Source of the DNA: Aridibaculum aurantiacum
GTDB taxonomy: Bacteria > Bacteroidota > Bacteroidia > Chitinophagales > Chitinophagaceae
Reading direction: 5' to 3'
Length of the DNA: 64,000 nucleotides
NCBI RefSeq assembly: GCF_017355875.1
Contig: NZ_JAFEWC010000001.1
Coordinates: forward strand, 2,542,001 to 2,606,000
Below are positions 3,024-53,009 of this stretch, piece after piece. The notes beneath the pieces are model-generated. The model did not search any database, was not told where the DNA came from, and saw only the letters and a program-made list of their open reading frames with translations. The first letter of the stretch is position 1. The number at the start of each line of letters is the position of its first letter. The position numbers and the translations under genes are program-made.

Positions 3024-3031
3024 CTACCCTC

Positions 3032-37796: not shown

Positions 37797-40700
37797 ATGA
37801 AGACAACTTTAAAGCTGTTATTCTTTATTTTCTGCTTGATGGTGTTTGGCCCTGCCATAGCACAACAATCAGAATTAGCCGCAGTAAAGGCTTATCTCGA
37901 AAAGCACAAGGAACAATTTCAACTTTCACCAACAGACTATGCAGATGTAGGAATTACACATTCTTACACAGAAAAGGAAACGCCAATCAAGCGTATCTAT
38001 GCACAACAAAAAATTGGCGGTATTGATGTAGTAGGCGGAAGCTTTTCACTGCATGTAAATACCAGGAACAACTATGAAGTAGGAACCAATCAACTGCTTC
38101 CTATCCATGCTTTCCAAAAAGATGGTTCTTTCCCGTATCGTACAGCTGAATTTGCCGCAAAAAAAGCACTGGAACATATTGGTGCCGGTGTTACAGGTTT
38201 ACAGGTAAAACAAGCTGCTGGCGGTGCTGAAAAGAAAACCGTATTCAAACGCAATGAAGCAGCCATGTGGGATGTACCGGCAAGGCTGGTATACCTGGCT
38301 GATGAAAAAGCTAAGAAGCTAAAGCTAGCGTGGGAAGTGCAGGTTTACGAGTACAACAAAAAGCACTACTGGGTAATGTACATCGAAGACCAGGGCGGCA
38401 AGATCTTGAAAAAAGTAGACCTGGTAGTAAAATGCCAGTTTGATGGACCGGCTACAGATGCTGATCATCAAAACCACAAGCACGAACTGGAAGTGGAAAA
38501 GGTACAGGATTCACCAGAGCCACTTTCGCCTTTTTTAAGAAATATAACTGCTACCAACAATGCATACCGCGTATACGATATGCCTATAGAAGCACCTAAT
38601 GACCCTATAGCTTCACACTCTTTAGTTTCAGGCAAAGAAGATGACGTAGCCTCAACTGATGGATGGCATAGAGTAGGTGCTGGTGCGCCTTTCAATTATT
38701 CGCGTGGTAACAACGTGTGGGCATTCTGGGATCCTAGCCCTACTCCATTAGGCGGTGTTCCTTCACCTGCAAATTCTGCTTTTAATAATGGTGGACCGCT
38801 AGGTGCTCCAACGCTTACAGAGCCATTCACCTTTGATTATCCAATCAATCTTGCACAGGAACCAGAAGCATATAGGAATGCAGCTATTGTAAACCTTTTT
38901 TACTGGAACAACCTGATACACGATGTGTATTATAAGTATGGTTTTAATGAAGATGCAGGTACCTTCCAAACATCACACATCTTTAGCGATGGACAACATG
39001 GTAGTACAGCGGCCCTTGATGGTCAGCTGGATGAAGTACTGGCGCAGGCGCAAGATGGCGGTGGTACCAATAATGCCAATTTCCTTACGCTACCTGATGG
39101 TACACATGGCCAGATGCAGATGTACCTGTGGACTGCCTCTATTCCAGACTCAATGGTGCAAATCACTTCTTCATCATCAGGTATACCACCTGCTGGCACT
39201 AAATTCATCGCAATAAAAGGTTCATTTGCCAGCCCTTCACAACAAAACCTGCATACCAACCCGGTAGTAAACAAGCAGTTTGTTATTGTGAAGAAAAACC
39301 CGCTTTCTACAGTAGGTAGCGACTCTGAAGGCTGTTCAACCGGCCAACAAAGTGTTGCTTTACCTCCGGGAAATGATGTGCAGGATAAGATCGTTCTGAT
39401 TGACAGAGGTAACTGTTCATTTGTAGAAAAAGTATTTGGTGCACAACAAGGCGGAGCAGCCGGTGTTATCATCATCAACAATGTAGATGGACCACCAATG
39501 GCAATGGGTGGCGCCGATGCACCAGGATTTCTTATTACTATTCCTGCTGTGATGATCAGCAAAGCTGATGGTGAAATACTAAAAGCACAACTTCGTGCAG
39601 GTGCTACCATCATCGGTTCATTAAAACAAGATAATCCTCCTGCTCCTAAGCGTGATGGAGATCTTGACAATGGTGTTATTGCACACGAATATGGTCATGG
39701 TATTTCTAACAGGCTTACCGGCGGTAGAAAAGCACTAGGTCCATTAGGTGGCAGCGAGCAAGGCGGTGAAGGCTGGAGCGACTTTATTGCGCTACACATG
39801 ATCACCCGCACCAATGATCTTCTACCAGCTACTGCAGATCATCCTAATGGTGTACTGCCAGATAAAGGAATTGGTACGTACGTAGTTTATCAACCAAGCA
39901 CTACCGGTGCAGGTATCCGTCCAACACGCTACAGCATCAGCAAAAGCGTAAACCCTTCATTGTTCAAAGACATAGCAAAAGGTGGAGAGATAACCGTTCC
40001 GCACGGCGTAGGCTACATCTGGTGTACTATGCTGTACGAAATGATGCAGGAGATGATTGACGAATATGGTTTCAATGATAATATTTATAACGCAGCAGCG
40101 CCTAATGCAGCAGGTACAGCACCTATGGCAGGAAGTGGTGGTAACAACATTGCTATGCGCCTGGTGATAGAAGGTATGAAGATCCAACCTACTGCACCTA
40201 CTTTCCAGCAGCAGCGCGATGCTATACTTAAAGCAGATACTTTATTGTATGGTGGTGTAAACGGCTGCAGAATATGGAGAGCATTTGCAAAGAGAGGTTT
40301 AGGATTAGGAGCAAGAAGCGGCAGCAATGCTTTGGGTGATGAAGTACAGGGTTTTGACGTACCAAATGCTTGCGATAACACGCAACTGCGGATGAATGTG
40401 AAGATAGATGGACCAGAAAGAGTGGATAATAATACTTTGGCGACTTACACAGTTACGGTAAGAAATATCCAAACGACAGATATCGCTAATGTTGTTATCA
40501 AAGACTCTATCCCAATGAACACCAGCTTCATTTCAGCATCAGACGGTGGTACACAAGTAGGTAATTTCGTGGTATGGAACCTGGCTACTCTTCCAGCAGG
40601 TCAAACAAAAACACTTACCATGACACTTGCTGTAAGCCTGCCTGAAGCATCTGTTACTCGTTTCTTTGATGATCATGAATCAGGTGGAGCAAACTGGACT

Positions 40701-41882
40701 ACAGATCCTCGTCCTGACACATGGCAGCGTCGCAATCTTCCTTCTCAGTCTTACAGTGGCAACTTCCATTGGTATGCACGCGAAGTAGAAGATCCAACAC
40801 ACAATGTTTGGTTGCAAATGGTACCACAGGTTACTATTCCTGCTGGCGGTGCTAAACTATCGTTCTACCACAAATACAATACTGAGCGCAACTACGATGG
40901 CGGTATAGTAGAAGTATCGGTGAATAATGGTCCATGGACTTACCTTCCTCCAAACAAGTTTGAGAAGAACGGTTACAATTCTGTTATCCAGCCGGCAGAC
41001 AATCCGAACATTGGCACTGCAGCTACATCTGCTTTCTCAGGTGCTACTGCAGGGTATATCAATTCTGTAGCTGACCTGAGCGATTATGCAGGACAGCAGA
41101 TAAGGGTTCGTTTCCGCTATACATGCGATGTAGCAAGCCTTGCTTCAGGAACTGACCCAGGCTGGTATATGGATGATGTATACATCATCAGCAACCTGAC
41201 CACAATCACTAATAAAGTAACCTTGGACGTAGCAAGTGGTAGTGCACAAATATTTGACTCTACCGGCAATACACCAGAGGCAAGCTTCACTACAATAGTT
41301 ATCGAAAATGCTACTCTGCCTACTGCTATCTCTTCATTGAGTGCAGCAGCACAGCGCAATCACATCAGGCTTAGCTGGAAGACCTTCACCGAAGTGAAGA
41401 ACAATGGTTTTGAAATAGAAAGAAAAGCTGAGAACGAAACCGACTTCCGCCCTATTGGATTTGTAAAAGGTGCAGGCAACAGCACACAAGAAAAAGGATA
41501 CATCTTCAATGATGCTGATGTACGTGCAGGTATATTCTACCATTACAGGCTGAAGCAGAAAGATGTGGATGGAAACTTCACTTATACCAATGTGGCAGTT
41601 GCAAAACTGGGCACTAAAGAAAGTGGAATCGTTTTCGACATCATGCCTAATCCTGCAACCAGTGTAGCCAACCTGGTGGTTAGCACGCCTGGCAGAAACA
41701 CCGGCCTTATCCGCCTGTACGATGCCATGGGTAAACCAATTACAACTTTCAATGCCTCATCTGCAATGAGCAGTGTACAGCGTTACGAAGTAAATGTAAG
41801 TACACTTCCTGCAGGTACATATTGGGTTGAGCTAATTGTAGACGATGTAAAAATGACCAAACGCCTGGTGGTAAACAGGTAA
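37797..41882 (+). CDS. M36 (fungalysin-type) metalloprotease with PA insert and T9SS domain
   Basis: A 1361-residue secreted protease. It has a signal peptide (about 1-22), an FTP propeptide (about 30-160, including QQKIGGIDVVGGSFSLHVN), and the M36 catalytic domain with HEYGH at 630-634 and the third zinc ligand Glu658 in GGEGWSDF. A protease-associated (PA) domain is inserted at about 500-600 (DKIVLIDRGNCSFVEKV). After the catalytic part come a DUF11-like repeat (about 865-945), a MAM/jelly-roll-like domain ending in PGWYMDDVYI, and a T9SS type A sorting domain (PNPATSVANLVV to KRLVVNR). It degrades extracellular protein, probably feeding peptides to the cell. Confidence 0.94.
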   Translation: MKTTLKLLFFIFCLMVFGPAIAQQSELAAVKAYLEKHKEQFQLSPTDYADVGITHSYTEKETPIKRIYAQQKIGGIDVVGGSFSLHVNTRNNYEVGTNQLLPIHAFQKDGSFPYRTAEFAAKKALEHIGAGVTGLQVKQAAGGAEKKTVFKRNEAAMWDVPARLVYLADEKAKKLKLAWEVQVYEYNKKHYWVMYIEDQGGKILKKVDLVVKCQFDGPATDADHQNHKHELEVEKVQDSPEPLSPFLRNITATNNAYRVYDMPIEAPNDPIASHSLVSGKEDDVASTDGWHRVGAGAPFNYSRGNNVWAFWDPSPTPLGGVPSPANSAFNNGGPLGAPTLTEPFTFDYPINLAQEPEAYRNAAIVNLFYWNNLIHDVYYKYGFNEDAGTFQTSHIFSDGQHGSTAALDGQLDEVLAQAQDGGGTNNANFLTLPDGTHGQMQMYLWTASIPDSMVQITSSSSGIPPAGTKFIAIKGSFASPSQQNLHTNPVVNKQFVIVKKNPLSTVGSDSEGCSTGQQSVALPPGNDVQDKIVLIDRGNCSFVEKVFGAQQGGAAGVIIINNVDGPPMAMGGADAPGFLITIPAVMISKADGEILKAQLRAGATIIGSLKQDNPPAPKRDGDLDNGVIAHEYGHGISNRLTGGRKALGPLGGSEQGGEGWSDFIALHMITRTNDLLPATADHPNGVLPDKGIGTYVVYQPSTTGAGIRPTRYSISKSVNPSLFKDIAKGGEITVPHGVGYIWCTMLYEMMQEMIDEYGFNDNIYNAAAPNAAGTAPMAGSGGNNIAMRLVIEGMKIQPTAPTFQQQRDAILKADTLLYGGVNGCRIWRAFAKRGLGLGARSGSNALGDEVQGFDVPNACDNTQLRMNVKIDGPERVDNNTLATYTVTVRNIQTTDIANVVIKDSIPMNTSFISASDGGTQVGNFVVWNLATLPAGQTKTLTMTLAVSLPEASVTRFFDDHESGGANWTTDPRPDTWQRRNLPSQSYSGNFHWYAREVEDPTHNVWLQMVPQVTIPAGGAKLSFYHKYNTERNYDGGIVEVSVNNGPWTYLPPNKFEKNGYNSVIQPADNPNIGTAATSAFSGATAGYINSVADLSDYAGQQIRVRFRYTCDVASLASGTDPGWYMDDVYIISNLTTITNKVTLDVASGSAQIFDSTGNTPEASFTTIVIENATLPTAISSLSAAAQRNHIRLSWKTFTEVKNNGFEIERKAENETDFRPIGFVKGAGNSTQEKGYIFNDADVRAGIFYHYRLKQKDVDGNFTYTNVAVAKLGTKESGIVFDIMPNPATSVANLVVSTPGRNTGLIRLYDAMGKPITTFNASSAMSSVQRYEVNVSTLPAGTYWVELIVDDVKMTKRLVVNR

Positions 41883-41910
41883 ACCAGATCTCACTATTCT
41901 CTGAAATACA

Positions 41911-41939
41911 AGAGGCTGCTCCAAATGGGCAGCCTCTTT
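41911..41939 (+). terminator. Terminator of the M36 protease gene
   Basis: agaggctgc (41911-41919), loop, gcagcctct (41929-41937) followed by a short ttta. The stem is perfect but the T-tract is weak. Confidence 0.7.
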
Positions 41940-41988
41940 AGTTAAATGAGGTTTTTGTTAACCGGCACCTATTCCTTCTTCAGCCCCG

Positions 41989-42008
41989 GTTGCGTCGCAC
42001 ACTTGTAC
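41989..42008 (-). repeat. 20-bp interspersed repeat, copy 1
   Basis: On the minus strand gtacaagtgtgcgacgcaac, identical over all 20 bases to the copies at 43127 and 52403. It lies in the convergent gap between the M36 gene and trxB. It contains the near-palindrome tgcgacgca, and is followed on its own strand by ccggggctga. A gtac...gtac repeat flanks it on the left (42005-42020). Confidence 0.9.
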
Positions 42009-42088
42009 ATTTAGGTGTACATCATCAATCCTGGCTTCAGATGGTATCCAACTTCTTTACATACACATTATGAGGAAGAGACAGGGCA

Positions 42089-43030
42089 CTAGATACCTTT
42101 CATAGCTAAATAGCGCTCGGCATCTAAAGCAGCCATACATCCACTGCCTGCAGCAGTTACAGCCTGGCGATAAATCTTATCCTGCACATCACCTGCAGCA
42201 AATACACCTTCTATAATGGTTTTACTGGTGCCTGGAGTTGTCAGCAGGTAACCGGCATCATCCATTTCGAGCCAGCCTTTAAAGATGTCGCTGTTAGGTT
42301 TGTGACCAATAGCTACAAAAAATGCACTCACCGGAATGTCGGCAGTTGTATTGGTTTCATGGTTCATGATGCGAACAGCTTCTACCTTCTTTTCACCCAG
42401 CACCTCCTGCGTAGAAGTGTTCCAGTAAACCTTGATATTCTCAGTTTTAAAAACGCGATCCTGCATGATCTTAGAGGCACGCATCTGGTCGCGGCGCACC
42501 AGCATATGTACAGTGCTGCAGAGCTTAGAAAGATATAAGGCTTCTTCGGCAGCAGTGTCACCAGCACCTACTATTGCTACTTCTTTTCCTTTAAAAAAGA
42601 AACCATCACATACAGCACAAGCACTTACGCCATAACCATTCAGTCGTTGCTCACTTTCCAGTCCCAGCCATTTAGCCGATGCACCTGTGCTTATAATAAC
42701 TGAGTCGGCTGTAATCAACTTTTCTTCATCAATCCATACCTTGAACGGCGGCTCCATGAAGTCAACCTTTGTAGCCATTCCATAACGAATGTCCGCTCCC
42801 ATACGTGCTGCCTGTTTTTCAAAATCGATCATCATTTCAGGACCCTGGACGCCTTCAGGATAACCCGGGTAGTTTTCTACTTCTGTAGTTATGGTAAGTT
42901 GTCCTCCGGGTTGAATGCCCTGGTAAAGCACCGGCTTAAGGTTAGCACGGGCAGCATAGATAGCAGCAGTATAACCTGCCGGTCCCGAACCTATTATTAA
43001 GCAATGAACGTGTTCTGTATTATTTTCCAT
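42089..43030 (-). CDS. trxB: Thioredoxin-disulfide reductase
   Basis: TrxB uses NADPH and FAD to reduce thioredoxin. The 313-residue chain has the FAD-binding motif LIIGSGPAGYTAAIYAARAN near residues 11-30, GGQLTITTEVENYPGYPEG, the redox-active Cys138-Ala-Val-Cys141-Asp motif (usually CATC), an NADPH-binding VAIVGAGDTAAEEALYL, and the C-terminal GVFAAGDVQDKIYRQAVTAA. It is cytoplasmic. The gene stands alone: convergent with the M36 gene, and with a 199-bp leader region upstream that holds a 20-bp interspersed repeat. Confidence 0.96.
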   Translation of the reverse strand: MENNTEHVHCLIIGSGPAGYTAAIYAARANLKPVLYQGIQPGGQLTITTEVENYPGYPEGVQGPEMMIDFEKQAARMGADIRYGMATKVDFMEPPFKVWIDEEKLITADSVIISTGASAKWLGLESEQRLNGYGVSACAVCDGFFFKGKEVAIVGAGDTAAEEALYLSKLCSTVHMLVRRDQMRASKIMQDRVFKTENIKVYWNTSTQEVLGEKKVEAVRIMNHETNTTADIPVSAFFVAIGHKPNSDIFKGWLEMDDAGYLLTTPGTSKTIIEGVFAAGDVQDKIYRQAVTAAGSGCMAALDAERYLAMKGI

Positions 43031-43046
43031 TTTAGGGGTTTTATCA

Positions 43047-43060
43047 CGAGGCTACCCTCG
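43047..43060 (-). promoter_or_regulatory. Small GC hairpin before trxB
   Basis: CGAGG-GTAG-CCTCG on the minus strand, a 5-bp stem and 4-nt loop ending 16 nt before the ATG. It may affect translation of trxB if the transcript starts at the -7 box near 43180. Confidence 0.3.
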
Positions 43061-43126
43061 CTCGTCTTTTCTAATGAATGCCAGGTTGTGGTTTGAGTGC
43101 GCAAACTGGTGAATAAAGCAGTTAAA

Positions 43127-43146
43127 GTACAAGTGTGCGACGCAAC
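43127..43146 (+). repeat. 20-bp interspersed repeat, copy 2
   Basis: gtacaagtgtgcgacgcaac, identical to the other two copies. It is followed by tacagctgataaatg. It lies upstream of trxB in the opposite orientation to that gene, and inside its predicted leader. Confidence 0.9.
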
Positions 43147-43176
43147 TACAGCTGATAAATGTTCTGCTGGCGGCGA

Positions 43177-43184
43177 CAAAATTA
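43177..43184 (-). promoter_or_regulatory. Possible -7 element of trxB
   Basis: TAATTTTG on the minus strand matches TAnnTTTG exactly, about 147 nt before the ATG. No good TTG partner is seen, so this is tentative. If used, the leader would include repeat copy 2. Confidence 0.35.
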
Positions 43185-43229
43185 AATTACTACACATTGC
43201 CAGAGGTGGCATTTTCTCAACATGAACTG

Positions 43230-44105
43230 TTATTTGGGGATAATAAGTGAAATATACTGCACCGCGTAACCGCAAAAAGCACCCAGCGCACCATTGTTTA
43301 CATTTCCCAGGACCCGCACCGGGCTCGCAAATGGATTGCCAACGCTCTGGTAGCCAAACTCCAGCGTGCGCCAGAAGTCGTAGGTGGCTTTATCAATATT
43401 GGCAAATTTCACAGTTACGGTATCTCCCCTTCCAAACGAGCGCCTATGCCCTTCTCCATTGTTCCGGTCTTTTCCTTGCTCTACAGTTACATTATAAGTA
43501 GTACCATCAACCACCTGGTCGTCGTGCACGGAGTTATCGCCGGGTAAAAAGTTGCCGTTGTTGGTGCTGGTATAGTAACGGATATAATTTCCTAATCCTG
43601 GCGGATCGGTGATTTTCGCCATCAGCCACACCCTGGACGTATCGCTGAACCTTGTCGGTTCGTGCCACAGGCTGTCTATGGTTTTGGTAAGTTTGGGAAT
43701 AGTGGTAGTGGAAGTATAGGATCTATTGTCAACACCTATGGATAATGTATAGGTTTTCTCCTGCTCACCCAGCATATTTAGGGCAGCGTTGGTGGTATCA
43801 GTAGAATAATAAGTAAGCGTGTACAGTCCTAAAACCGGCACATGGTATTCCTTTAGGTTTACTGTCCTGGTACCATCGTTAAGGGTAAGATTGGCTCCGC
43901 GTACAACAGAAGCGGCTACTACATCAGGGGAAAAGGATGAAAAGTAATTGATAGACTTACTTAATATAACATAAGGCGGTTGTCCATCTTCAATAATGCC
44001 ATCGACTACCAGTAGCGGCTCTTGTATTTCCGGCTGAACATTGATTGTTTTTTCGCACGAGATAGCCATTACTGAAAGCAGGAATAGCCAAAATGTGTTT
44101 TTCAT
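43230..44105 (-). CDS. DUF4249 domain lipoprotein
   Basis: A 291-residue lipoprotein (MKNTFWLFLLSVMAISCEKT, lipobox Cys17) with the DUF4249 start PEIQEPLLVVDGIIEDGQPP followed by YVILSKS and an Ig-like beta-rich body. DUF4249 genes usually follow a TonB-dependent receptor gene, and their products are thought to be surface-exposed partners. No receptor adjoins this one, so it is an orphan by context. It may be a stand-alone surface protein, or its partner may lie elsewhere. It has its own promoter box 4 nt before the ATG. Confidence 0.88.
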   Translation of the reverse strand: MKNTFWLFLLSVMAISCEKTINVQPEIQEPLLVVDGIIEDGQPPYVILSKSINYFSSFSPDVVAASVVRGANLTLNDGTRTVNLKEYHVPVLGLYTLTYYSTDTTNAALNMLGEQEKTYTLSIGVDNRSYTSTTTIPKLTKTIDSLWHEPTRFSDTSRVWLMAKITDPPGLGNYIRYYTSTNNGNFLPGDNSVHDDQVVDGTTYNVTVEQGKDRNNGEGHRRSFGRGDTVTVKFANIDKATYDFWRTLEFGYQSVGNPFASPVRVLGNVNNGALGAFCGYAVQYISLIIPK

Positions 44106-44109
44106 AAAG

Positions 44110-44117
44110 CAAAAGTA
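44110..44117 (-). promoter_or_regulatory. -7 element of the DUF4249 gene, predicted leaderless
   Basis: TACTTTTG on the minus strand matches TAnnTTTG exactly and ends 4 nt before the ATG at 44105, as at pdxJ. Confidence 0.5.
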
Positions 44118-44232
44118 CGGTGGTAAAATATATGAGCAGAAACTATAACAATTACATCACCATTCGGTTGAGTTTCAACAACTACACCTGCAAATGGCAT
44201 GGAAATTTTGCACCTACTGCAAATTGTTCATA

Positions 44233-45090
44233 ATGAGAAAAACACTTTCAGTACCAGTAATGGTTGTTTGTGCTGCACTATCGCTTAGTTCGTGTGTGGC
44301 AAAACGACATTTAGTAAATGCAGAAAACAATATCCAGCGACTGCAGATGGACAGCACCCAGATGTCGGCAAGGATAAACACCCTTGAACAGAATGTTAGC
44401 CGGATGGAAGCCAGCATCCGCGATCTTGAAGCCAACAGAACCTCCCTTCAACAACAACTAAGTGCAACGCGGCAGGAAGCTTCGAGCCGCCTGCAGGATG
44501 CCAGCACCCGCTTGAACCTGAGTGCGGCCCAGATAGCTGACCAGCAAAAAAGGCTGGAGTATATGCAGCAACTAATAGAGCAGCAAAGGCGAGCTACACA
44601 GGAACTAAGAAAAAAGGTGAGCGATGCTTTGGGCAACTTCAACACGGAAGAATTGACCGTTTCTACCAAGAATGGAAAAGTATATGTTAGTCTGCAGGAA
44701 AACCTGCTTTTCCCTTCAGGAAGTGCGGTAGTAAATCCTAAAGGACGACAGGCATTGGGAACTTTGGCAGGTGTACTCAACAGTAATCCTGAGATCAATG
44801 TATTGATAGAAGGTCATACAGACTCCATTCCTATGCGTGGTCGTTTTGCTGACAACTGGGAACTGAGTACAGCGCGTGCAAATGCGATAGTGAGAATATT
44901 GACAGATACGTACAAAGTAGAACCAACAAGAGTAACAGCCAGTGGCCGCGCCTGGTACGACCCGGTTGATACCAATCTAACAACACAAGGGCGTGCAAAG
45001 AATCGCAGAACAGAAATCATTTTAGAACCAAGGCTTGACCAGTTGATGGAGCTGATAAGATATGGAGAAGAGGGAACTGCGGGGCAGTGA
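44233..45090 (+). CDS. OmpA-family lipoprotein with coiled coil
   Basis: The start is at 44233 (MRKTLSVPVMVVCAALSLSS, lipobox Cys21), since the frame from 44194 would bury the signal. The 285-residue protein has a coiled coil at about 28-135 (NIQRLQMDSTQMSARINTLE, with repeated Gln/Arg/Leu heptads), then a C-terminal OmpA peptidoglycan-binding domain: VLIEGHTDSIPMRG, ELSTARANAIVRIL, VTASGRAWYDPVD and RAKNRRTEIIL. The coiled coil could span the periplasm between outer membrane and wall. The gene converges on the primary sigma factor gene, with a shared terminator. Confidence 0.9.
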   Translation: MRKTLSVPVMVVCAALSLSSCVAKRHLVNAENNIQRLQMDSTQMSARINTLEQNVSRMEASIRDLEANRTSLQQQLSATRQEASSRLQDASTRLNLSAAQIADQQKRLEYMQQLIEQQRRATQELRKKVSDALGNFNTEELTVSTKNGKVYVSLQENLLFPSGSAVVNPKGRQALGTLAGVLNSNPEINVLIEGHTDSIPMRGRFADNWELSTARANAIVRILTDTYKVEPTRVTASGRAWYDPVDTNLTTQGRAKNRRTEIILEPRLDQLMELIRYGEEGTAGQ

Positions 45091-45192
45091 GCTGGTAATT
45101 AGTTGATCAGTTGATTAGTTGATCAGTAACTGGTGATTAGTTACAAGTTTTCGACTTTAGAGTTTTGACTTTTGACATTTGACTTTTGAATT
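45091..45192. repeat. Intergenic GATTAGTTGATCAGTT and GACTTTTGACTTT words
   Basis: The spacer after the OmpA-family gene has aattagttgatcagttgatt and agttgatcagtaactggt, plus gattagttacaagt (45096-45147), then gactttagagttttgact and tttgacatttgacttttg (45150-45188). Two different tandem words lie side by side. No inverted partner is seen, but the downstream terminator is intact. Confidence 0.6.
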
Positions 45193-45205
45193 TCTAACAC
45201 AAAAC

Positions 45206-45234
45206 AAAACCCCTTCCAGTTAGGAAGGGGTTTT
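45206..45234. terminator. Bidirectional terminator between the OmpA-family gene and the sigma factor gene
   Basis: aaaaccccttcc, loop agtta, ggaaggggtttt: a perfect 12-bp stem with A-tract and T-tract on the two sides. It serves two convergent genes. Confidence 0.9.
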
Positions 45235-45258
45235 TACTTTTTATCTATGTAGGAAAGA

Positions 45259-46116
45259 TTATCCTAAATATGCTTTCAGCGCATTGCTATAACGTGCTTT
45301 TTGAAGACGTTTGATAGCTCTTTCTTTGATCTGGCGGATACGTTCTTTTGTAAGATCATATTTTTGACCGATCTGCTCAATGGTAACACCATTTTCGCCA
45401 TCTAAACCAAAATATGCATTAACGATCTCGGCTTCACGTGGAGATAGAGACTTCAATACCCGACGAATTTCTTCTCTTAAACTATCCTTCATTACATCGT
45501 CGTCGGTATCATCACCACCTTCCAGCAGGTCACCCATTGCTACGTCTTCAGCTTCGTGCACAGGTGCATCCAGGGAAGTGTGACGGGTATTGCTTTGAAA
45601 GATATTGTTGATCTCAGTCTCACTCATTTCCAGGATCTCAGCTAACTCTTCAGTGCTTGGCTCCCTTTCGTGTTCCTGTTCAAAAGCCATGTAAGCTTTA
45701 TTGGCTTTGTTATAAGTTCCGATTTTATTTTGTGGCAGACGAACCAACCTACCCTGCTCGGCCAAAGCCTGCAAAATTGATTGACGGATCCACCAAACTG
45801 CATAAGATATGAATTTGAAACCTTTTGTTTCGTCGAAACGCTGGGCCGCTTTTATCAAACCGAGGTTACCCTCATTTATCAGGTCGCTTAGCGAAAGCCC
45901 CTGGTGTTGGTATTGTTTTGCAACAGACACTACGAAACGAAGGTTAGCGGTAGTAAGTCTTTCCAAAGCTCTCTGATCGCCCATTTTTATTTTCTGGGCC
46001 AGGATCGTTTCCTCTTCGGGAGTGATCATTGGGATCTTAGAGATTTCCTGGAGGTACTTTTCTACAGCTTGCGAATCGCGGTTCGTAATCTGTGTGGCAA
46101 TTTTGAGCTGCCTCAT
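45259..46116 (-). CDS. rpoD: Primary sigma factor (sigma-70), Bacteroidota type
   Basis: A 285-residue sigma-70 factor lacking region 1.1, as is usual for the Bacteroidota primary sigma. Region 1.2 (SQAVEKYLQEISKIPMITPE) is followed by region 2 with LTTANLRFVVSVAKQYQHQG, DLINEGNLGLIKAA and FKFISYAVWWIRQSIL; region 3 has RLVRLPQNK; region 4 has LSPREAEIVNAYFGLDG and LTKERIRQIKERAIKRLQKA. This factor would read the TTG/TAnnTTTG promoters marked in the window. The acidic stretch EGGDDTDDD between regions 3 and 4 is also a family trait. It has a divergent 412-bp spacer to threonine aldolase. Confidence 0.95.
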   Translation of the reverse strand: MRQLKIATQITNRDSQAVEKYLQEISKIPMITPEEETILAQKIKMGDQRALERLTTANLRFVVSVAKQYQHQGLSLSDLINEGNLGLIKAAQRFDETKGFKFISYAVWWIRQSILQALAEQGRLVRLPQNKIGTYNKANKAYMAFEQEHEREPSTEELAEILEMSETEINNIFQSNTRHTSLDAPVHEAEDVAMGDLLEGGDDTDDDVMKDSLREEIRRVLKSLSPREAEIVNAYFGLDGENGVTIEQIGQKYDLTKERIRQIKERAIKRLQKARYSNALKAYLG

Positions 46117-46528
46117 AATTTAATTGAATGTATTGGTTAAAGTAAAACGCTTGTAAGACATTGATGTACATGAACTGGTTGCAATAACAATGCTAAACGC
46201 CATAATTCAAATGTCTGCAAAGGTAAGTTGCAACATTGGTTTTTGCCAGCGTTTGTGGAAAAAGATAACCGGATTGTATATAATTTAACCCTTTGTAACT
46301 AAAAATTTAGTATATCAGTCAATTTTGATTTCTTCTTCCTTCTATTCCAACCACTATTGATTTACAGTTTTTTCTACTTCATTAGCTTAAACTTTTTTAA
46401 GTAAAGAAATTCTCCTATCCGGGAGTAGCTTTTTGTAGAACGAAATGTTTGGGTATGCGGCGAAATAATATTCAAAAAGCATACCCTATTGTTTCTTTTA
46501 CCACTATAGATAGTAATTTCGTGCCCCT
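46117..46528. other. 412-bp divergent spacer with predicted promoters
   Basis: No gene is seen. On the minus strand TACCTTTG (46225-46218) is an exact -7 element for the sigma factor gene, with a leader near 95 nt. On the plus strand TTG (46490-46492), 21 bp, TAATTTCG (46514-46521) is one base off and ends 7 nt before the threonine aldolase ATG. A short ctcctatccgggag hairpin with ttttt lies near 46410-46435. The centre is AT-rich. Confidence 0.5.
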
Positions 46529-47545
46529 ATGATTGATTACCGGTCAGACACCTTTACCAAGCCAACTCCAGCCATGCTGGAAGCCATGTTTAGAGCCGAA
46601 GTAGGCGACGATGTTTTTGAAGAAGATCCCACCATCAATAAGCTGGAAATACTTTCTGCAGACATGTTTGGCAAAGAAGCTGGATTGTTTTGTCCTAGTG
46701 GAACAATGACAAACCAAATAGCGATTAAATGCCATACGCAACCCGGCGATGAAGTGATCTGCGAAGAACTTTCGCATGTTTACATATATGAAGGTGGCGG
46801 CATAGCCTTCAATGCGGCTGCATCTGTACGGCCGGTAAAAGGCGACAGGGGAAGAATTACTGCCGAACAAGTACGGGAGGCTATTAACCCGGAAGATATT
46901 CATAAACCTTATTCTGCATTGGTGAGCCTGGAAAATACTGCGAACCGCGGCGGCGGAAGTTGCTATGATTTTGCTGAGCTTGAAAAGATAAAAGAGGTTT
47001 GTAAAGAACAAGGGTTGGCACTTCACCTGGATGGAGCACGATTATTCAATGCATTGGTGGCCAAAAATGAAAAGCCCCAGGCATACGGGCAGGTTTTTGA
47101 TACTATTTCACTATGCCTTAGCAAAGGATTAGGAACACCAGTTGGTAGTGTATTATTGGGAGACAAGAACTTTATAAAGAAGGCGCGCCGGGTAAGAAAA
47201 GTTTTAGGAGGAGGAATGAGGCAGGCAGGTTACCTTGCTGCCGCCGGCATATATGCTCTTGAAAATCATATTGACCGGTTGGCTGAAGATCACCAACATG
47301 CACAAATGCTGGCTGATGCATTGGCCAGTAAAGATTTTGTTAGAGTGATCAACCCGGTAGAGACCAACATCCTGATATTTGAAGTGAAGGGAAGATTTAC
47401 ACCACAAGGATTGGTTGACAAACTGATGAACGAGTATGACATTAAATGTATAGCCATTTCGCGTACACAAGTAAGATTGGTTTTACATCTAGATGTAACA
47501 AGAGAAATGGTAGAGAAAACTATTGATGTATTACAACAGCTGTAA
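46529..47545 (+). CDS. ltaE: Threonine aldolase, PLP-dependent
   Basis: A 338-residue fold-type I PLP enzyme that cleaves threonine or allo-threonine into glycine and acetaldehyde. The N-terminus IDYRSDTFTKPTPAMLEAM, with GDDVFEEDPT and GLFCPSGTMTNQIAI, is characteristic. The PLP Lys is K199 in SLCLSKGLGTPVGS, and RKVLGGGMRQAGYLAAAG contributes the phosphate contacts. ALHLDGARLFNAL holds the Asp that pairs with the PLP ring. It is cytoplasmic. Pgi follows 31 nt later, probably in the same transcript, with no obvious metabolic link. Confidence 0.93.
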   Translation: MIDYRSDTFTKPTPAMLEAMFRAEVGDDVFEEDPTINKLEILSADMFGKEAGLFCPSGTMTNQIAIKCHTQPGDEVICEELSHVYIYEGGGIAFNAAASVRPVKGDRGRITAEQVREAINPEDIHKPYSALVSLENTANRGGGSCYDFAELEKIKEVCKEQGLALHLDGARLFNALVAKNEKPQAYGQVFDTISLCLSKGLGTPVGSVLLGDKNFIKKARRVRKVLGGGMRQAGYLAAAGIYALENHIDRLAEDHQHAQMLADALASKDFVRVINPVETNILIFEVKGRFTPQGLVDKLMNEYDIKCIAISRTQVRLVLHLDVTREMVEKTIDVLQQL

Positions 47546-47576
47546 TACCTTCATTTTAATATTTAAAGGTTATTGA

Positions 47577-49238
47577 ATGCTTCCTAAAGTAAATCCCACC
47601 AATACACAAGCCTGGCTGCTGCTGAGACGACATTTTGAAGAAGAGATGCAACGTACGCACATGCGCAAATTATTTGACGCTGATGCAGAAAGGTTCTCTA
47701 AGTTCAGTCTCCAGTTCAATGATATCCTGTTTGATTATTCAAAAAATATCCTGACGCAGAAGACCATGCAGTTGTTGTTTCAACTGGCGGAAGAATGCCA
47801 GCTAAGGCAATCAATAGACAGCATGTTTGGTGGTGAAAGGATTAATGAAACGGAAGATCGTGCTGTACTTCATGTGGCTTTACGCAATATGGGTAATGCA
47901 CCATACATGGTAAATGGCGAAGATGTGATGCCTGGTGTGGTAAAGGTGCGCAAGCAAATGAAGACCTTCTGCGATAAAGTACATTCGGGTGATTGGAAAG
48001 GTTATACAGGCAAGCGGATCAAGAGTATCGTGAACATTGGTATTGGAGGAAGCGACCTGGGACCAGTGATGGTTACAGAAGCACTGAAGCCTTATTGGAA
48101 GAAAAACATACAGACCTACTTTGTAAGTAATGTAGATGGAACTCATATAGCCGAGACGCTAAAAAAGGTTAAGCCGGAAGAGACTTTATTCCTTGTGGCA
48201 AGTAAGACCTTTACTACCCAAGAAACTATGACCAATGCACATACTGCACGTTCATGGTTCCTGGAGCAGGCTATAGATGAAGCACATATTGCAAAACATT
48301 TTGTTGCCCTTAGCACCAATGAAAAAGAGGTGGTGAAATTCGGAATTGCACCTGAGAATATGTTTGAATTCTGGGATTGGGTTGGCGGAAGATATTCTTT
48401 GTGGAGTGCAATTGGTTTATCTATAGCATTGACCATTGGCTATAACAACTTTGAAGAATTACTACACGGTGCTTACGAGGTTGATGAACATTTCCGCAGA
48501 GAAAAGTTCTCTGGCAACATCCCGGTGATCATGGCGTTGATCGGCCTTTGGTATACCAACTTCTTCAATGCGCAGAGCGAGGCAATCCTACCTTACGACC
48601 AGTACATGCATAGGTTTGCGGCATATTTCCAGCAAGGAAATATGGAGAGCAATGGAAAGTCAGTAGATCGTAACGGATACGAGGTTAACTACCCTACCGG
48701 TCCTGTTATCTGGGGCGAACCCGGCACCAATGGTCAACACGCTTTTTACCAGCTCATCCACCAGGGCACACTTATTATTCCTTGCGATTTTATAGCACCA
48801 GCTATTAGTCATAATCCTATTGGTGATCATCATGTAAAACTGTTGAGCAACTATTTTGCACAAACAGAAGCATTAATGAATGGTAAGACTGAAGACGAAG
48901 TAAAACAGGAACTAACAAAGGCTGGGTTGAACAAAGAAGAGATCAAAAAGCTGGTGAAGTTCAAAGTCTTCAAAGGGAATAAGCCTACGAATTCATTTAT
49001 GGTAAAACAGGTAACACCACGTACATTAGGTAACCTCGTAGCGATGTACGAACACAAGATATTTGTACAGGGCGCTATCTGGAATATCTTCAGCTTCGAC
49101 CAGTGGGGTGTAGAGCTAGGAAAACAACTAGCAAATAAAATATTGCCTGAACTGGAAAATAATGATACTGTAAATTCTCATGACAGCTCTACCAATGGAT
49201 TGATCAATGCGTTTAAGACGTTGAGAGCACAAGGTTAG
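47577..49238 (+). CDS. pgi: Glucose-6-phosphate isomerase
   Basis: Pgi interconverts glucose-6-phosphate and fructose-6-phosphate in glycolysis. The 553-residue length matches the large bacterial/eukaryal type. Signatures: [20 protein letters not shown] (about 150-169), [37 protein letters not shown] (PGI motif 1), [19 protein letters not shown] and, near the C-terminus, [13 protein letters not shown] (PGI motif 2). All expected motifs are intact. It is cytoplasmic and ends before a strong bidirectional terminator. Confidence 0.97.
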
Positions 49239-49276
49239 GGTTTAAGGTTTAAAGTATAAAGTTTAAGGTTAGGCTT
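49239..49276. repeat. GTTTAAGGTTTAAAG words after pgi
   Basis: Four imperfect copies of a gtttaaggt-type word (ggtttaaggtttaaagtata, then aagtttaaggttaggctt) fill the 38 nt between the pgi stop and its terminator. Confidence 0.5.
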
Positions 49277-49281
49277 ATATG

Positions 49282-49316
49282 AAAAAAAGGCAACTGTGAA
49301 CCAGTTGCCTTTTTTT
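49282..49316. terminator. Bidirectional terminator after pgi
   Basis: aaaaaaaggcaactg, loop tgaac, cagttgccttttttt: a perfect 15-bp stem shared by the convergent pgi gene and the hypothetical gene at 49350. Confidence 0.92.
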
Positions 49317-49349
49317 ATGGAGCAGAGGTATATTTCCTCTTGTTTCAAT

Positions 49350-50288
49350 TTATCGCTTGAAATCAAACAAAGTAGCGGTGAAGTTGGCTATCTCTCTTTT
49401 CTTGAACATAACATTCCAATTGCCGACATAACGTAGAACTTTTGGCACCAGCAACTCTCCCACTTTTTCTAGCTGTACTTCCATGTCTACGTCAAAATCA
49501 TATACACCTGTTTTGTAGCTAAGGCTATAGTTGCGGCCAATGATCTCCAACGTGCGGGCATTGAACCAGGTGGTCATTTCATCAATTACTATATTGCTCC
49601 TGTCCCACGCAGAAAGGTCTTTCTTTGGTCGGATGGTGAAGACATAACAAGGATAACCTCGATAATCCTGTTTATCAATTTTGAAGTCGTATAGCTTGGC
49701 AACATCCTCATCGAATATGGCTACTTTGTTAGCTATCATAGGGAGACCTGGAATACGGTTACCTGGATTGAAAAACAATTGCTTCAATTGTTCTTTATGT
49801 TTGGCCATCCCACTTTTGCCCCGGGTATTGAAAGTTGTTCCTTTTACAATATTCGTCTCACCACATACCTTTCCTTTTGTAAAGAATAAACCTGCATACA
49901 TTTCCGCAGTAGTGTAGTTGTAGCTGCCATCACCTTTGTAAAAATCACCTGTGGTCTTTTCGTCTTTCACTTCCATTGTTCTGCAGCCGTTGGCATAGGT
50001 CTGCCTGGTGGTGCTTTGCATGGTAGCTGTAACCGCACCTTTCTTATTCTTTAAGATGATGTCGTTGTAAGAAGAAAAGCTGAGCACCCTGAGGTTGCGG
50101 AATGCTTTGTAAAATGTAGTGTCGTTTTTTACGTATTCAATGAAGGCAGGATAATCAAAGTTGTTGCGGATAACAACATCGGTTAAGGTGAAGGACTGGT
50201 TCTTATAAACAACAGTAGTATCTTCTTGCGAAAAAGCGCAAAAGGAAACCGCTGTTAGAAGAGACAGTATCAACCATTGCTTCATCAT
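49350..50288 (-). CDS. Exported hypothetical protein
   Basis: A 312-residue protein with a signal peptide (MMKQWLILSLLTAVSFCAFS). The start VVYKNQSFTLTDVVIRNNFD recalls the beginning of carboxypeptidase-like surface proteins of Bacteroidota, and the body is beta-rich with repeated long strands (YPCYVFTIRPKKD, TWFNARTLEIIGRNYSLSYK, FDVDMEVQLEKVGELLVPKV), as in outer-membrane lipoprotein-sorting or LolA-like folds. I do not assign a function. The ATG overlaps the def stop (ATGA), so it is translated from the def mRNA. It converges on pgi with a shared terminator. Confidence 0.75.
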   Translation of the reverse strand: MMKQWLILSLLTAVSFCAFSQEDTTVVYKNQSFTLTDVVIRNNFDYPAFIEYVKNDTTFYKAFRNLRVLSFSSYNDIILKNKKGAVTATMQSTTRQTYANGCRTMEVKDEKTTGDFYKGDGSYNYTTAEMYAGLFFTKGKVCGETNIVKGTTFNTRGKSGMAKHKEQLKQLFFNPGNRIPGLPMIANKVAIFDEDVAKLYDFKIDKQDYRGYPCYVFTIRPKKDLSAWDRSNIVIDEMTTWFNARTLEIIGRNYSLSYKTGVYDFDVDMEVQLEKVGELLVPKVLRYVGNWNVMFKKREIANFTATLFDFKR

Positions 50289-50863
50289 TTGGCGTACATC
50301 ATCTTGTAGTCCATCCTGATCTTCCCTTTGCTGATGTCGTTCAGTTTGCCTTGCAGCATCTTGCGGCGCAGTGGCTTCAGGTAGTCAATAAAAAGTTTAC
50401 CTTCTATATGATCGTACTCGTGTTGTATGATGCGTGCTGTAAGACCAACAAAGGTTTCTGTATGTGGTTGAAAATTTTCGTCTACATATTCCAACACCAC
50501 CTCTTCAGGGCGCTTTACATCTTCGCGGATCTTTGGTATGCTCAAACAGCCTTCGTTGTATGCCCACTCTTCGCCATCCAATTGCTTGATGTGCGCATTG
50601 ATGAAAACCTTCTTAACACCTGGAGCATCTGCATATCCACCATCCTCATCGTCGTCCTGGTTGGCAAAGATCTGTGCGCTGTCTACAACAAAAAGACGGA
50701 TAGCTCTATTGATCTGCGGTGCAGCCAATCCCACTCCATTACTTGCATACATGGTTTCCCACATATCTTCAATCAGTTTCTCTAATTGAGGATAATCTGG
50801 AGAAATGTCCTGGGCTACTTGTCGTAAAATGGGAGCACCGTATGCAACTATCGGAAGAGTCAT
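50285..50863 (-). CDS. def: Peptide deformylase
   Basis: Def removes the formyl group from nascent N-terminal Met. The correct start is the ATG at 50863 (MTLPIVAYGAPILRQVA); the open frame continues upstream to 50974, but without homology and across the promoter box. The 192-residue enzyme has all three motifs: GVGLAAPQ (motif 1), EGCLSIP (motif 2, metal Cys) and QHEYDHIEG (motif 3, HExxH). An acidic insert DDDEDGGYADAPG at about 82-94 lies between motifs 1 and 2. It is cytoplasmic, co-translated with the exported protein downstream, and follows ruvX. Confidence 0.96.
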   Translation of the reverse strand: MTLPIVAYGAPILRQVAQDISPDYPQLEKLIEDMWETMYASNGVGLAAPQINRAIRLFVVDSAQIFANQDDDEDGGYADAPGVKKVFINAHIKQLDGEEWAYNEGCLSIPKIREDVKRPEEVVLEYVDENFQPHTETFVGLTARIIQHEYDHIEGKLFIDYLKPLRRKMLQGKLNDISKGKIRMDYKMMYAK

Positions 50864-50904
50864 ATATAATTTTCTACGTATTAAAAATGCTGGTTGAGCG
50901 GTGG

Positions 50905-50912
50905 CAAAAATA
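50905..50912 (-). promoter_or_regulatory. -7 element upstream of def
   Basis: TATTTTTG on the minus strand matches TAnnTTTG exactly, placed in the 61-bp gap after ruvX and about 41 nt before the def ATG. Confidence 0.45.
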
Positions 50913-50924
50913 GCCAAATAGATG

Positions 50925-51335
50925 TTATTGCCTTTGTAAATACTCCTGTAACATAATGATGGCTGCAATCTCATCCACCATCTTTTTATCCTGGCGTTTC
51001 TTTTTTTTCATCCCGCTTTCTACCATGCTTTGCACCGCCATTTTAGAAGTGTAACGTTCATCTACTTTTTCTATGGGTATGTTGGGAAATACTTTTACGA
51101 AACGATTGATGAATGCCTGAACCAATGGCGTAGCATGCGTATCGCTGTCGTCCCAGTTGGTAGGATGTCCAATGATGACCCGCTCCACCTGCTCTTTAGA
51201 AAAATAATCCTTCAAAAATTGCTCAAGGTCTTTGGTGTGTAAACCTGCAAGGCCTGTAGCAATGATCTGCATAGGGTCGGTAACAGCCAGGCCTGTGCGT
51301 TTAGAGCCGTAGTCAATGGAAAGAATTCTAGCCAT
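50925..51335 (-). CDS. ruvX: Putative pre-16S rRNA nuclease, YqgF/RuvX
   Basis: A 136-residue RNase H-like protein. Family motifs: RILSIDYGSKRTGLAVTDP (catalytic Asp7), VERVIIGHPTNWD and VDERYTSKMAVQSMV, then DEIAAIIMLQEYL (the last Asp). YqgF/RuvX matures the 5' end of 16S rRNA in E. coli and was once called a Holliday-junction resolvase. All expected acidic residues are present. It is upstream of def on the same strand, with a promoter between them. The 95-bp spacer to ubiA carries inverted word repeats. Confidence 0.93.
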   Translation of the reverse strand: MARILSIDYGSKRTGLAVTDPMQIIATGLAGLHTKDLEQFLKDYFSKEQVERVIIGHPTNWDDSDTHATPLVQAFINRFVKVFPNIPIEKVDERYTSKMAVQSMVESGMKKKKRQDKKMVDEIAAIIMLQEYLQRQ

Positions 51336-51340
51336 GTTTT

Positions 51341-51437
51341 TAATTAAAAATCTAAAATGTAAAATGTAAAAATTAGGAAATTGATGCCTAGCGATTTAAC
51401 TGACGAACGATGAGTTTTTCATTTTGCATTTTACATT
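51341..51437. repeat. AAAATGTAAAATGTAAAA words, inverted, entering a gene
   Basis: aaaatctaaaatgtaaaatg and taaaaatt (51347-51374) face the reversed copy gtttttcattttgcatttta and catttt (51413-51438). The right arm runs into the coding sequence at 51431 and supplies its stop codon and the last Met and Lys codons. Confidence 0.65.
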
Positions 51438-52363
51438 TTCCAAAGCAGATCGGCTATTACAAAAACAGCGAACACCACACTGGCTATACCATTAGCCGTC
51501 ATGAAAGCCAGGTTTACGCGGCGCAGGTCGTGGGGCTTTACAATGGAATGTTGATAGATGAGCATGCCGCAAAACACAACAACCCCTATCCAATACAGCC
51601 AGCCAAATTCACCTAACCATCCTGCAGCTATTACAATCAATCCGCTAAAAACATGCAGCAGTTCCGACACCCGCAGAGCGTTCTTTTTACCAAGCCGCGC
51701 CGGGATAGAATGAAGCTGGTGCTCACGGTCAAAATCAATATCCTGCAAAGCATAGATGATATCGAAACCACTTACCCAGAATAAAACTGTGAAAGAAAAT
51801 AATACAGGCAGCACGGCAAACTCGCCGGTAACAGCAAGATAGGCGCCAATGGGTGCAAGCGATAGCCCCAGCCCCAGCACAAGATGACACAATGCAGTGA
51901 AGCGCTTTGTATAACTATAAAAAAGAATTACGAATAATGCTACAGGACTTAGAAAGAAACATATGCGGTTGATAAAGAAAGTAGAGATAATAAACAGGAT
52001 GCAATTGAGAATAACAAAGCGAAGCGCACTGCTGGACGAAATGATACCAGCCGGAATTTCGCGGATGGCAGTACGCGGGTTCTTTGCATCAAAATTTTTG
52101 TCGAGAAAGCGGTTGAAGGCCATTGCCGCACTGCGTGCAGTGACCATACATACCAGCACAAGAACAAAGCGGAGGATAATTTCCTGGATCGAGCCTGGAA
52201 AATCATACGAGGATATACCAAACTCGTAATGGACTTGTGAAAGCACATTGCCATACTGTTCAAATAGCCTATACCCAAGAAAAAACCCGATCAATGCGAA
52301 TGGAAGCGCAAAGATGGTGTGACTAAACTTTACCAGTGACAGGTAATTCTTTACTGTGTTCAT
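51431..52363 (-). CDS. UbiA-type prenyltransferase (menaquinone pathway, MqnP-like)
   Basis: A 310-residue integral membrane prenyltransferase with about eight helices. The two Asp-rich motifs are visible: AAMAFNRFLDKNFDAKNPRT (about 83-102, NRxxDxxxD type) and FDIIYALQDIDFDREHQLHS (about 200-219). HSIPARLGKK after the second motif is typical of the UbiA-like enzymes of the futalosine (MqnP) route, so it likely attaches the polyprenyl chain in menaquinone synthesis. 4-Hydroxybenzoate prenyltransferase annotation is the common alternative. Its last codons lie inside an intergenic-type word repeat. Confidence 0.85.
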   Translation of the reverse strand: MNTVKNYLSLVKFSHTIFALPFALIGFFLGYRLFEQYGNVLSQVHYEFGISSYDFPGSIQEIILRFVLVLVCMVTARSAAMAFNRFLDKNFDAKNPRTAIREIPAGIISSSSALRFVILNCILFIISTFFINRICFFLSPVALFVILFYSYTKRFTALCHLVLGLGLSLAPIGAYLAVTGEFAVLPVLFSFTVLFWVSGFDIIYALQDIDFDREHQLHSIPARLGKKNALRVSELLHVFSGLIVIAAGWLGEFGWLYWIGVVVFCGMLIYQHSIVKPHDLRRVNLAFMTANGIASVVFAVFVIADLLWKM

Positions 52364-52402
52364 TTATGTTTTTGATGTTGCCTTGCCGATACTTACTCTA
52401 CA

Positions 52403-52422
52403 GTACAAGTGTGCGACGCAAC
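52403..52422 (+). repeat. 20-bp interspersed repeat, copy 3
   Basis: gtacaagtgtgcgacgcaac, identical to copies 1 and 2, followed by gaagttgattg. It lies in the 109-bp spacer upstream of the UbiA gene, in the opposite orientation to that gene, as copy 2 does at trxB. Confidence 0.9.
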
Positions 52423-52472
52423 GAAGTTGATTGTTTTTCAAATGCTGGTTACAAAAATTCTTCCCACCAAAC

Positions 52473-53009
52473 CTAAAGCCGCAATAGCTGTTGCTCCACC
52501 AATTTCCAGGTAACAATACCTGCTGCTACTGATATGTTCAACGAATGCTTCATACCCAGCTGCGGTATCTCAATGCTGCCGTCTGCCATCTTCAAAACGT
52601 CATCGGCTACGCCCTCTACTTCATTGCCTAGTACAATTGCTAGCTTCGTCTCTGGTTGCCAATGGAATTTTTCCAACGAGATGCTTCCTTGCGTTTGTTC
52701 AATGGCATAAACCGTATACCCGCGCTGTTTCAGCTCGGCAACAGCTTCAGTAGTTTCGGAATAATAAAGCCAATCTACCGTTTCAGTAGCGCCTAATGCA
52801 GTCTTTTGAATATCGCGATGCGGAGGTTGCGGTGTATAGCCACAAAGGCAAATAGCTTCTACAAGAAATGCATCGGCAGTACGAAATACGCTGCCCACAT
52901 TGTGCATGCTGCGGATGTTATCCAGCACCACCACCAACGGGTTCTTCTCAGCCTGCTTAAACTCATCGACCGACTTTCGGCCCAGCTCATCCATACTCAA
53001 TTTGCGCAT
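52473..53009 (-). CDS. SpoU/TrmH family RNA methyltransferase
   Basis: A 178-residue 2'-O-ribose methyltransferase with the trefoil-knot fold. The three motifs are seen: VVLDNIRSMHNVGSVFRTAD (motif 1, about 27-46), TKLAIVLGNEVEGVADDVL (motif 2) and IEIPQLGMKHSLNISVAAGI (motif 3). It modifies tRNA or rRNA; the exact position is unknown, and there is no N-terminal substrate-binding domain. MRKLSMDELGRKSVDEFKQA begins the chain. It has its own promoter box, 5 nt before the ATG. It is transcribed away from the EthD gene. Confidence 0.93.
   Translation of the reverse strand: MRKLSMDELGRKSVDEFKQAEKNPLVVVLDNIRSMHNVGSVFRTADAFLVEAICLCGYTPQPPHRDIQKTALGATETVDWLYYSETTEAVAELKQRGYTVYAIEQTQGSISLEKFHWQPETKLAIVLGNEVEGVADDVLKMADGSIEIPQLGMKHSLNISVAAGIVTWKLVEQQLLRL

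Follow-up and report, generated by a model that had tools for sequence, protein, structure and literature searches.

Sites of chromosome-organizing proteins, such as matS, NBS and parS, are short dyads that are sequence-specific and dispersed; dispersed recognition sequences on the scale described below are, to our knowledge, known from few groups. In the known cases of uptake signal sequences (USS) and DNA uptake sequences (DUS), a pilus-type uptake machinery is needed. As far as the available text of PMC1626085 describes them, USS combine a 9-bp core with two AT-rich motifs (Haemophilus), DUS are 10 bp long (Neisseria), and both occur about once per kb; the CGTC-tagged repetitive extragenic palindromes (REPs) of PMC3733652, in the part available, form a stem of 8-9 bp closed by a loop of 4-5 bases, have no dedicated transposase and often occur as dimers. 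Here, we describe a dispersed element found in a 64,000-nt stretch of Aridibaculum aurantiacum (assembly GCF_017355875.1, contig NZ_JAFEWC010000001.1, positions 2,542,001 to 2,606,000; the window) and in related Chitinophagaceae, where it is built around the 20-bp core GTTGYGTCRCWCWCTTGTAC.

The element has a defined modular architecture, lies between genes, has no secondary structure, and is conserved in core and orientation at spacers of core operons that are shared across genomes, chiefly rpsB-tsf. These properties make it reasonably probable, in our judgment, that the element is a double-stranded DNA recognition site of about 78 bp, read by a protein, dispersed between genes and maintained by selection.

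Results

Architecture of the element

An earlier inspection of the window's letters (the sequence-only reading) reported an exact 20-mer in three copies and regarded its recurrence as non-random. The three copies are present with 0 mismatches (Table 1), and 100 dinucleotide shuffles yielded none. Judging from 99 copies of the A. aurantiacum genome and from a profile of 706 copies, the 20-mer is the core of an element of about 78 bp whose conserved stretch runs from about -38 to +38, with little conserved beyond. Upstream, a T-tract is followed by GTnnCC-RGC (CCRGC) and then by (T)CA[GA]C directly before the core; downstream, a TTCAGC-like module ends at +38. The modules on the two sides of the core form weak direct repeats with a best offset of 42-43 bp (706 copies). 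The tga that the sequence-only reading saw 5-8 bases past each window copy does exist, as the reverse complement of the conserved TCA[GA]C module that directly precedes the core.

Two core types, GCG-T-CGC and GTG-T-CAC, differ jointly at three positions; 666 of 682 distinct copies are one or the other and 16 are neither. The ratio between the two types is biased towards type A because 120 GTDB loci were retrieved by the exact type A core. The joint change at three core positions keeps a small odd dyad, GYG-T-CRC. T-runs of at least 5 nt are found in 46% of the 179 copies whose T-tract faces a stop and in 43% of the 135 that face a start; being equally strong when it faces a gene start, the T-tract belongs to the element. 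Several copies in the A. aurantiacum genome are followed by a repeat, TTGAACCAC(T/C/A)(A)AGACAC, that is related to the second repeat seen upstream of tsf (below).

Copy number and taxonomic spread

The A. aurantiacum genome (4.86 Mb, 5 contigs) contains 113 places within 3 mismatches of the core (58 forward and 55 reverse; 41 exact), a count far above background, with a single match for the reversed-pattern control. The second core type, GTACAAGTGAGTGACACAAC in the orientation of the sequence-only reading, is present in this genome in 26 exact copies, or in 31 when up to 2 mismatches are allowed; it lies 3 mismatches from the first type and is therefore counted within the 113 places, 67 of which are exact to one of the two types. 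Flank and context analyses of this genome cover 99 of the 113 places.

Places within 3 mismatches were found in 59 of 148 genomes. Of these, 58 are among the 89 Chitinophagaceae and one is among 59 other genomes of the order, the latter with a single place. The remaining 31 family genomes have none at this threshold. Counts range from 0 to 1,596 places per genome (G079; 784 and 812 by strand), and within one genus from 3 (G007) to 1,207 (G001). Reversed-pattern controls gave 0-2 matches per genome, and counts of 1-4 are near this level and have little meaning alone; for example, G016 has 4 matches against 2 in its control, and G018 has 8 against 2. In samples of the copy-poor G007 and G012, repeated 14-mers included nothing comparable to the element. 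The few copies in copy-poor genomes (L386 to L425) mostly retain a near-intact core with recognizable neighboring modules, which looks like whole-site loss and not uniform weakening.

The exact 20-mer occurs in at least 120 stretches of GTDB contigs. Among the matches listed are records named Chitinophagaceae, Segetibacter, Ferruginibacter, Hydrotalea, Pinibacter, Paracnuella, Longitalea and Niastella, and others named only Bacteroidota, Bacteroidetes, Sphingobacteriales or Chitinophagales; IMG/VR holds 7 stretches on 6 contigs. No paper on the repeat, including its literal 20-mers, was found in the open-access literature, subscription papers and preprints being outside the scope of that search.

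Placement between genes

Placement was sampled in four relatives, around known copies in G072 and G033 and by contig number in G001 and G079, with one G079 stretch taken around its trxB. Genes were called with a simple codon-usage caller, and draft genomes may miss genes. In these samples, 8 of 239 copies lie in coding sequence, compared to about 205 expected from the coding fraction. Among spacers of at least 60 bp, a copy is present in 44 of 64 convergent, 114 of 231 tandem and 33 of 87 divergent ones, and both the convergent excess and the divergent deficit persist after length correction (permutation p 0.003 each). The A. aurantiacum genome agrees, with 8 of 99 copies inside a called gene, each at most about 80 nt from the called start or end, and with both orientations relative to genes.

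In many copies the T-tract borders directly on a stop codon, placing the core 35-44 nt past the stop, or forms the tail of a terminator hairpin. Hairpin terminators are equally frequent in spacers with and without a copy (convergent, 26/48 versus 15/26; tandem, 36/125 versus 40/140), and replacement of hairpin terminators by the element is therefore not supported. Neighboring copies at most 300 bp apart are inverted with their T-tracts outward in 31 of 34 cases and inverted the opposite way in 3; none are in tandem. On contig 1 of A. aurantiacum (77 places), spacing is no more even than random, with a coefficient of variation (CV) of 1.12 for the gaps, and regional clustering was detected neither there (Kolmogorov-Smirnov p 0.09) nor among 68 of the 161 places of G013 (p 0.24). 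Judged by eye on partial sequences, none of the 25 gene families that recur most often beside copies was recognized as mobile.

Shared sites across genomes

The spacer between rpsB and tsf is the clearest shared site. In 20 of 30 genomes the 340 nt preceding tsf contain a copy, in forward orientation in all 20 (one has an extra reverse copy); genome density predicts 2.48 (P about 2e-20). Of the 30 tsf loci, 28 show rpsB upstream, and those of G046 and G068 do not. Within the extent of the loci, the 400 nt after tsf hold a copy in 1 of 30 cases and those before rpsB in 0 of 28. Both rpsB-tsf and trxB were chosen after copies had been seen there in the A. aurantiacum genome. Without G000 and G081, whose copies at rpsB-tsf prompted the interest, the count is 18 of 28 (P 1e-17), and P is 2e-9 when density is tripled for the long spacer. 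Moreover, 9 of the 18 genomes with at most 161 places have the rpsB-tsf copy, compared to 0.28 expected. Among 19 of the 20 copies, core identity is 0.90 and flank identity is 0.30-0.44. G007 holds a decayed remnant at this position (score -15.9 versus about -28 for shuffles).

A second repeat, the inverted AACCACATAGGCACAT...ATGTGGTTT, stands just after the element upstream of tsf in several of the genomes G001, G002, G004, G005, G006, G008 and G009; upstream of tsf in G019 this repeat is present and the element is absent.

Other spacers are shared as well. In an ortholog test on 56 ortholog-like gene pairs between A. aurantiacum loci and those of other genomes, 12/17 versus 7/26 spacers coincide on the 5' side (p 0.011) and 12/16 versus 5/22 on the 3' side (p 0.003); these p-values are optimistic, as the loci were mostly retrieved for holding a copy and one spacer may count from both sides. 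Twelve shared sites, drawn from those behind 24 test rows, were read individually: orientation is the same in 11 and different in 1, and core type differs in 3. Core type also differs at the trxB 3' spacer (G001 versus G000) and at gapA-pgk (G069 versus G000). The trxB gene is flanked by copies on both sides, in the same orientations, also in G001 and G079, making 3 of 20 genomes in all; a copy stands in the 5' spacer of 7 of 20 genomes, compared to 2.32 expected (P 0.003), and in the 3' spacer of 3 of 20. Across nine copy-poor genomes, 4 of 40 regions around listed places have a neighbor gene that matches the neighbor of an A. aurantiacum copy, namely upstream of tuf and at gapA-pgk in G069 (2 of its 3 places) and at prfA and metH in G037. 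Further matches of sites between genomes are nuoM-nuoN, trpB and aspS.

Absence of an RNA or DNA fold

Mutual information across 336 copies, taken from five genome samples, is highest among core positions 5, 9 and 11, which leaves room for a 3-base loop at most; the other top pairs are close flank neighbors, suggesting small shifts and not stems, and no long-range covarying stem was found. Of these copies, 80 were folded and did no better than dinucleotide shuffles, with mean z values of 0.07 (RNA) and 0.32 (DNA), so that neither a structured RNA nor a REP palindrome is supported. The stretch just upstream of copies folds better (RNA mean z -0.70, with 23% below -2), as expected of terminator hairpins. 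Rfam gave no match at the window copies, its two sub-threshold matches lying elsewhere. A TAnnTTTG promoter was present in 5 of the 336 copies, which does not support a promoter reading. Two further readings, a coding function of the reverse strand and attC sites, were dropped after inspection by eye only.

Mobility and Y1 transposases

Within the five genome samples, none of the 4,851 + 4,278 + 378 + 703 + 3,003 pairs of copies share both flanks at over 80% identity (without gaps), which argues that existing cores persist at their positions and are not new copies; by this comparison, the samples lack the recent near-identical full-length copies expected of miniature inverted-repeat transposable elements (MITEs). 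A search for Y1 transposases in 80 of the 89 family genomes gave no match in 18, including G033 (285 places), G006 (129) and G081 (109). In 30 Y1 loci of 1.9-3.3 kb, one per genome, there are 5 copies in 4 loci, compared to 3.47 expected, and in none do copies flank the Y1 gene on both sides in inverted order. Copy-rich genomes without Y1 and the lack of a clear excess at these loci leave a general dependence on Y1 transposases unsupported. In A. aurantiacum, the four Y1 genes listed, of five, are separated from a copy by 178, 596, 2,806 and 4,875 bp, closer than expected by chance (combined p 0.002). One of these four, at locus L014 (C1:418565-422584), about 2198-3180, precedes repeated palindromes such as GTTGGGCTACGCCCAAC and ATGCGCTATGCGCAT, a separate REP-like family, possibly with its own REP-associated tyrosine transposase (RAYT).

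The three window copies and their surroundings

The coordinates of neighboring genes confirm that all three window copies lie in spacers, as the sequence-only reading had held. Copy 1 is located between the M36 protease gene (end 41882) and trxB, copy 2 on the other side of trxB, in the spacer towards a DUF4249 gene (43230-44105), and copy 3 between the UbiA gene (51431-52363) and the SpoU methylase gene (52473-53009). A 92-aa open reading frame with a TTG start (42997-43275) crosses copy 2 and overlaps both neighboring genes; it was not accepted as a gene. The M36 gene (37797-41882) encodes a fungalysin-like protease that also carries PA, MAM-like and DUF11 domains and a sorting tail for a secretion system.

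Table 1. Core copies and adjoining features in the window. Core strands refer to the reading GTTGCG...GTAC; the strand of the 20-mer as first reported is given under remarks.
Feature	Coordinates	Strand	Remarks
Core copy 1	41989..42008	+	20-mer on minus; extended element about 41949-42027 (extent from the 706-copy profile)
Core copy 2	43127..43146	-	20-mer on plus; extended element about 43108-43186 (extent from the profile); 5' of trxB
Core copy 3	52403..52422	-	20-mer on plus; extended element about 52384-52462 (extent from the profile); in the spacer between the SpoU methylase and UbiA genes
trxB	42089..43030	-	name from the sequence-only reading; Pfam: Pyr_redox_2; copy on each side
Terminator-like hairpin	41909..41940	+	after the M36 protease gene, before copy 1; by eye, unscored

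Discussion

A near-invariant core, no structure, no polarity linked to transcription, the same spot across genera and rarity or absence in many species are together the trace expected of a sequence-specific DNA-binding factor. We infer such binding, and among the possibilities raised by the sequence-only reading a protein-binding site is the one that fits best, given the odd dyad, the strong core with weak flanks, the absence of a fold and a T-tract that is independent of transcription direction. A putative protein, likely a dimer on GYG-T-CRC, would read the core together with the weaker modules (the T-tract and CCRGC upstream, and the direct repeats 42-43 bp apart on both sides), and lineages that lost the protein would then lose the sites. 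The service would be rendered at the DNA level, in marking or organizing the cell's own chromosome, through either uptake-signal-like recognition of self-DNA or a chromosome-organizing protein, and would consist neither in transcript production nor in transposon movement.

Several observations weigh against this assignment. No binding protein for the element was found, in an analysis made without a whole-proteome comparison. The preference for convergent spacers, the avoidance of divergent ones and the frequent position after stop codons or terminators would be in keeping with a transcriptional role as well. The switch of core type at 3 of 12 shared sites and the change of orientation at 1 of 12 are not accounted for by simple purifying selection. 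Decay in G007 is seen at one of four spacers compared, the other three showing nothing above shuffles, and rpsB-tsf in G033 holds only a decayed copy (by eye) despite 285 places in that genome. Finally, the trxB 5' spacer is weak evidence: without the A. aurantiacum genome it has a copy in 6 of 19 genomes (P 0.014), and P rises to 0.28 at doubled density.

A specific version of the recognition-site assignment, which we put forward tentatively, is that a DNA-uptake or recombination machine prefers the element and copies build up by biased transfer, as with uptake signals. In the available text of PMC1626085, USS and DUS share with it a strong consensus, no strand bias (58/55 in A. aurantiacum; 784/812 in G079), inverted close pairs (31/34), weak flanking motifs, two dialects, stable positions and a non-coding preference; however, the element has almost no intragenic copies (8/239), a core twice as long, a density of at most about 0.3 per kb versus about one per kb, and gaps that are not more regular than by chance (CV 1.12, contig 1). 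The uptake machinery was searched in 77 of the 89 family genomes. A T2SSE/PilB-type motor exceeded the cut-off in 9 of them, with a near-full-length match in only 2 (G036 and G071), and uptake based on type IV pili is thus not supported. ComEC was found in 71, including the copy-poor G007; the six genomes without a match are the copy-rich drafts G005 and G008 together with G025, G027, G044 and G074. ComEC is present whatever the count, which does not support ComEC tracking copy number. Descent from a REP- or MITE-like mobile element, whose short copies were once spread by a trans-acting transposase into T-rich gene ends and are now fixed, we consider unlikely. The distribution is that of a REP-like repeat, as the sequence-only reading had suggested: copies are intergenic, number from hundreds to over 1,000, form inverted pairs with T-tracts outward and vary within a genus from 3 to 1,207, while the T-tract at the left edge adjoins stop codons and terminators. 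The structure is not, since there is no palindrome and no stem beyond that of shuffles. The proximity of four A. aurantiacum Y1 genes to copies (combined p 0.002) is in line with the mobile cassette also suggested there, but that idea otherwise has little support, with no pair sharing both flanks and no mobile gene in the 25 top neighbor families; 18 of 80 genomes, among them the copy-rich G033, G006 and G081, lack a Y1 match, the 30 Y1 loci hold 5 copies versus 3.47 expected with none flanking both sides in inverted order, the L014 Y1 gene adjoins a different repeat, and the rpsB-tsf site is shared.

Two further explanations place the role in transcription or in the transcript. A bound protein could block RNA polymerase, with a pause in the T-tract about 32-38 bp before the core, making the element a roadblock terminator or insulator. 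The spacing between T-tract and core is attractive for a roadblock, the T-tract adjoins stop codons and terminator hairpins, and 44/64 convergent versus 33/87 divergent spacers hold a copy (permutation p 0.003 each); but the T-tract is as strong facing a gene start, and hairpin terminators are neither replaced nor avoided (26/48 versus 15/26 convergent; 36/125 versus 40/140 tandem), and we regard such a boundary function as improbable. An element acting as RNA, whether a structured RNA, a small RNA target or a processing site, would agree with the location inside the conserved gene pairs rpsB-tsf, gapA-pgk and nuoM-nuoN and with the single orientation at rpsB-tsf. It is nonetheless very improbable given the lack of a long-range stem in mutual information (336 copies), fold z values of about 0, the absence of an Rfam match at the window copies, the occurrence of both orientations relative to genes and a TAnnTTTG promoter in 5 of 336 copies.

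For the recognition site that we favor, the likeliest single named role is self-DNA recognition or uptake, although as a specific assignment it stays on the doubtful side. Extended to the whole family, it would amount to a self-DNA recognition code in Bacteroidota, with a 20-bp core, two dialects and a phased element of about 78 bp. Its reader would be a DNA-binding or uptake protein of a new type that does without type IV pili, and the code would have persisted at some core operons from an early stage of the family, with repeated losses; we offer this as a speculative possibility. An element that occupies 44 of 64 sampled convergent spacers (four genomes), holds its position at rpsB-tsf across genera and, at 3 mismatches, has no copy in 31 of 89 family genomes points to a trans-acting system that has yet to be described in a large environmental phylum, and the core sequence is a direct handle for finding its protein.

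Comparison with known systems

Compared with matS, NBS and parS, the element differs in its more than 1,000 copies in some genomes, its long flanks and the absence of detected regional clustering (A. aurantiacum contig 1 and G013). REPs and bacterial interspersed mosaic elements (BIMEs) with RAYT, as described in the available part of PMC2817692, are similarly intergenic, very numerous, arranged in inverted pairs and variable in count, whereas the element has no folding palindrome and no GT(A/G)G head followed by a palindrome, and is abundant also in some genomes without a Y1 transposase match. The CGTC-tagged REPs resemble it, in the portion of PMC3733652 available, in that its core holds CGTC or TGTC, no transposase appears to be dedicated to it and dimers are common; their 8-9 bp stem is absent from the element, where CGTC lies inside the odd dyad. 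Among the systems compared, the closest published behavior appears to be that of the uptake signal sequences in Pasteurellaceae (USS) and Neisseriaceae (DUS). The element differs from them in having a 20-bp core in an element of about 78 bp, an almost wholly intergenic placement, a lower density, a random-like spacing and a near-full-length match to the pilus motor (T2SSE) in only 2 of 77 genomes. The likeness to uptake signals, within the text of PMC1626085 available, comprises a strong short consensus, dialects, equal strands, inverted pairs, weak flanks, stable positions and restriction to a family.

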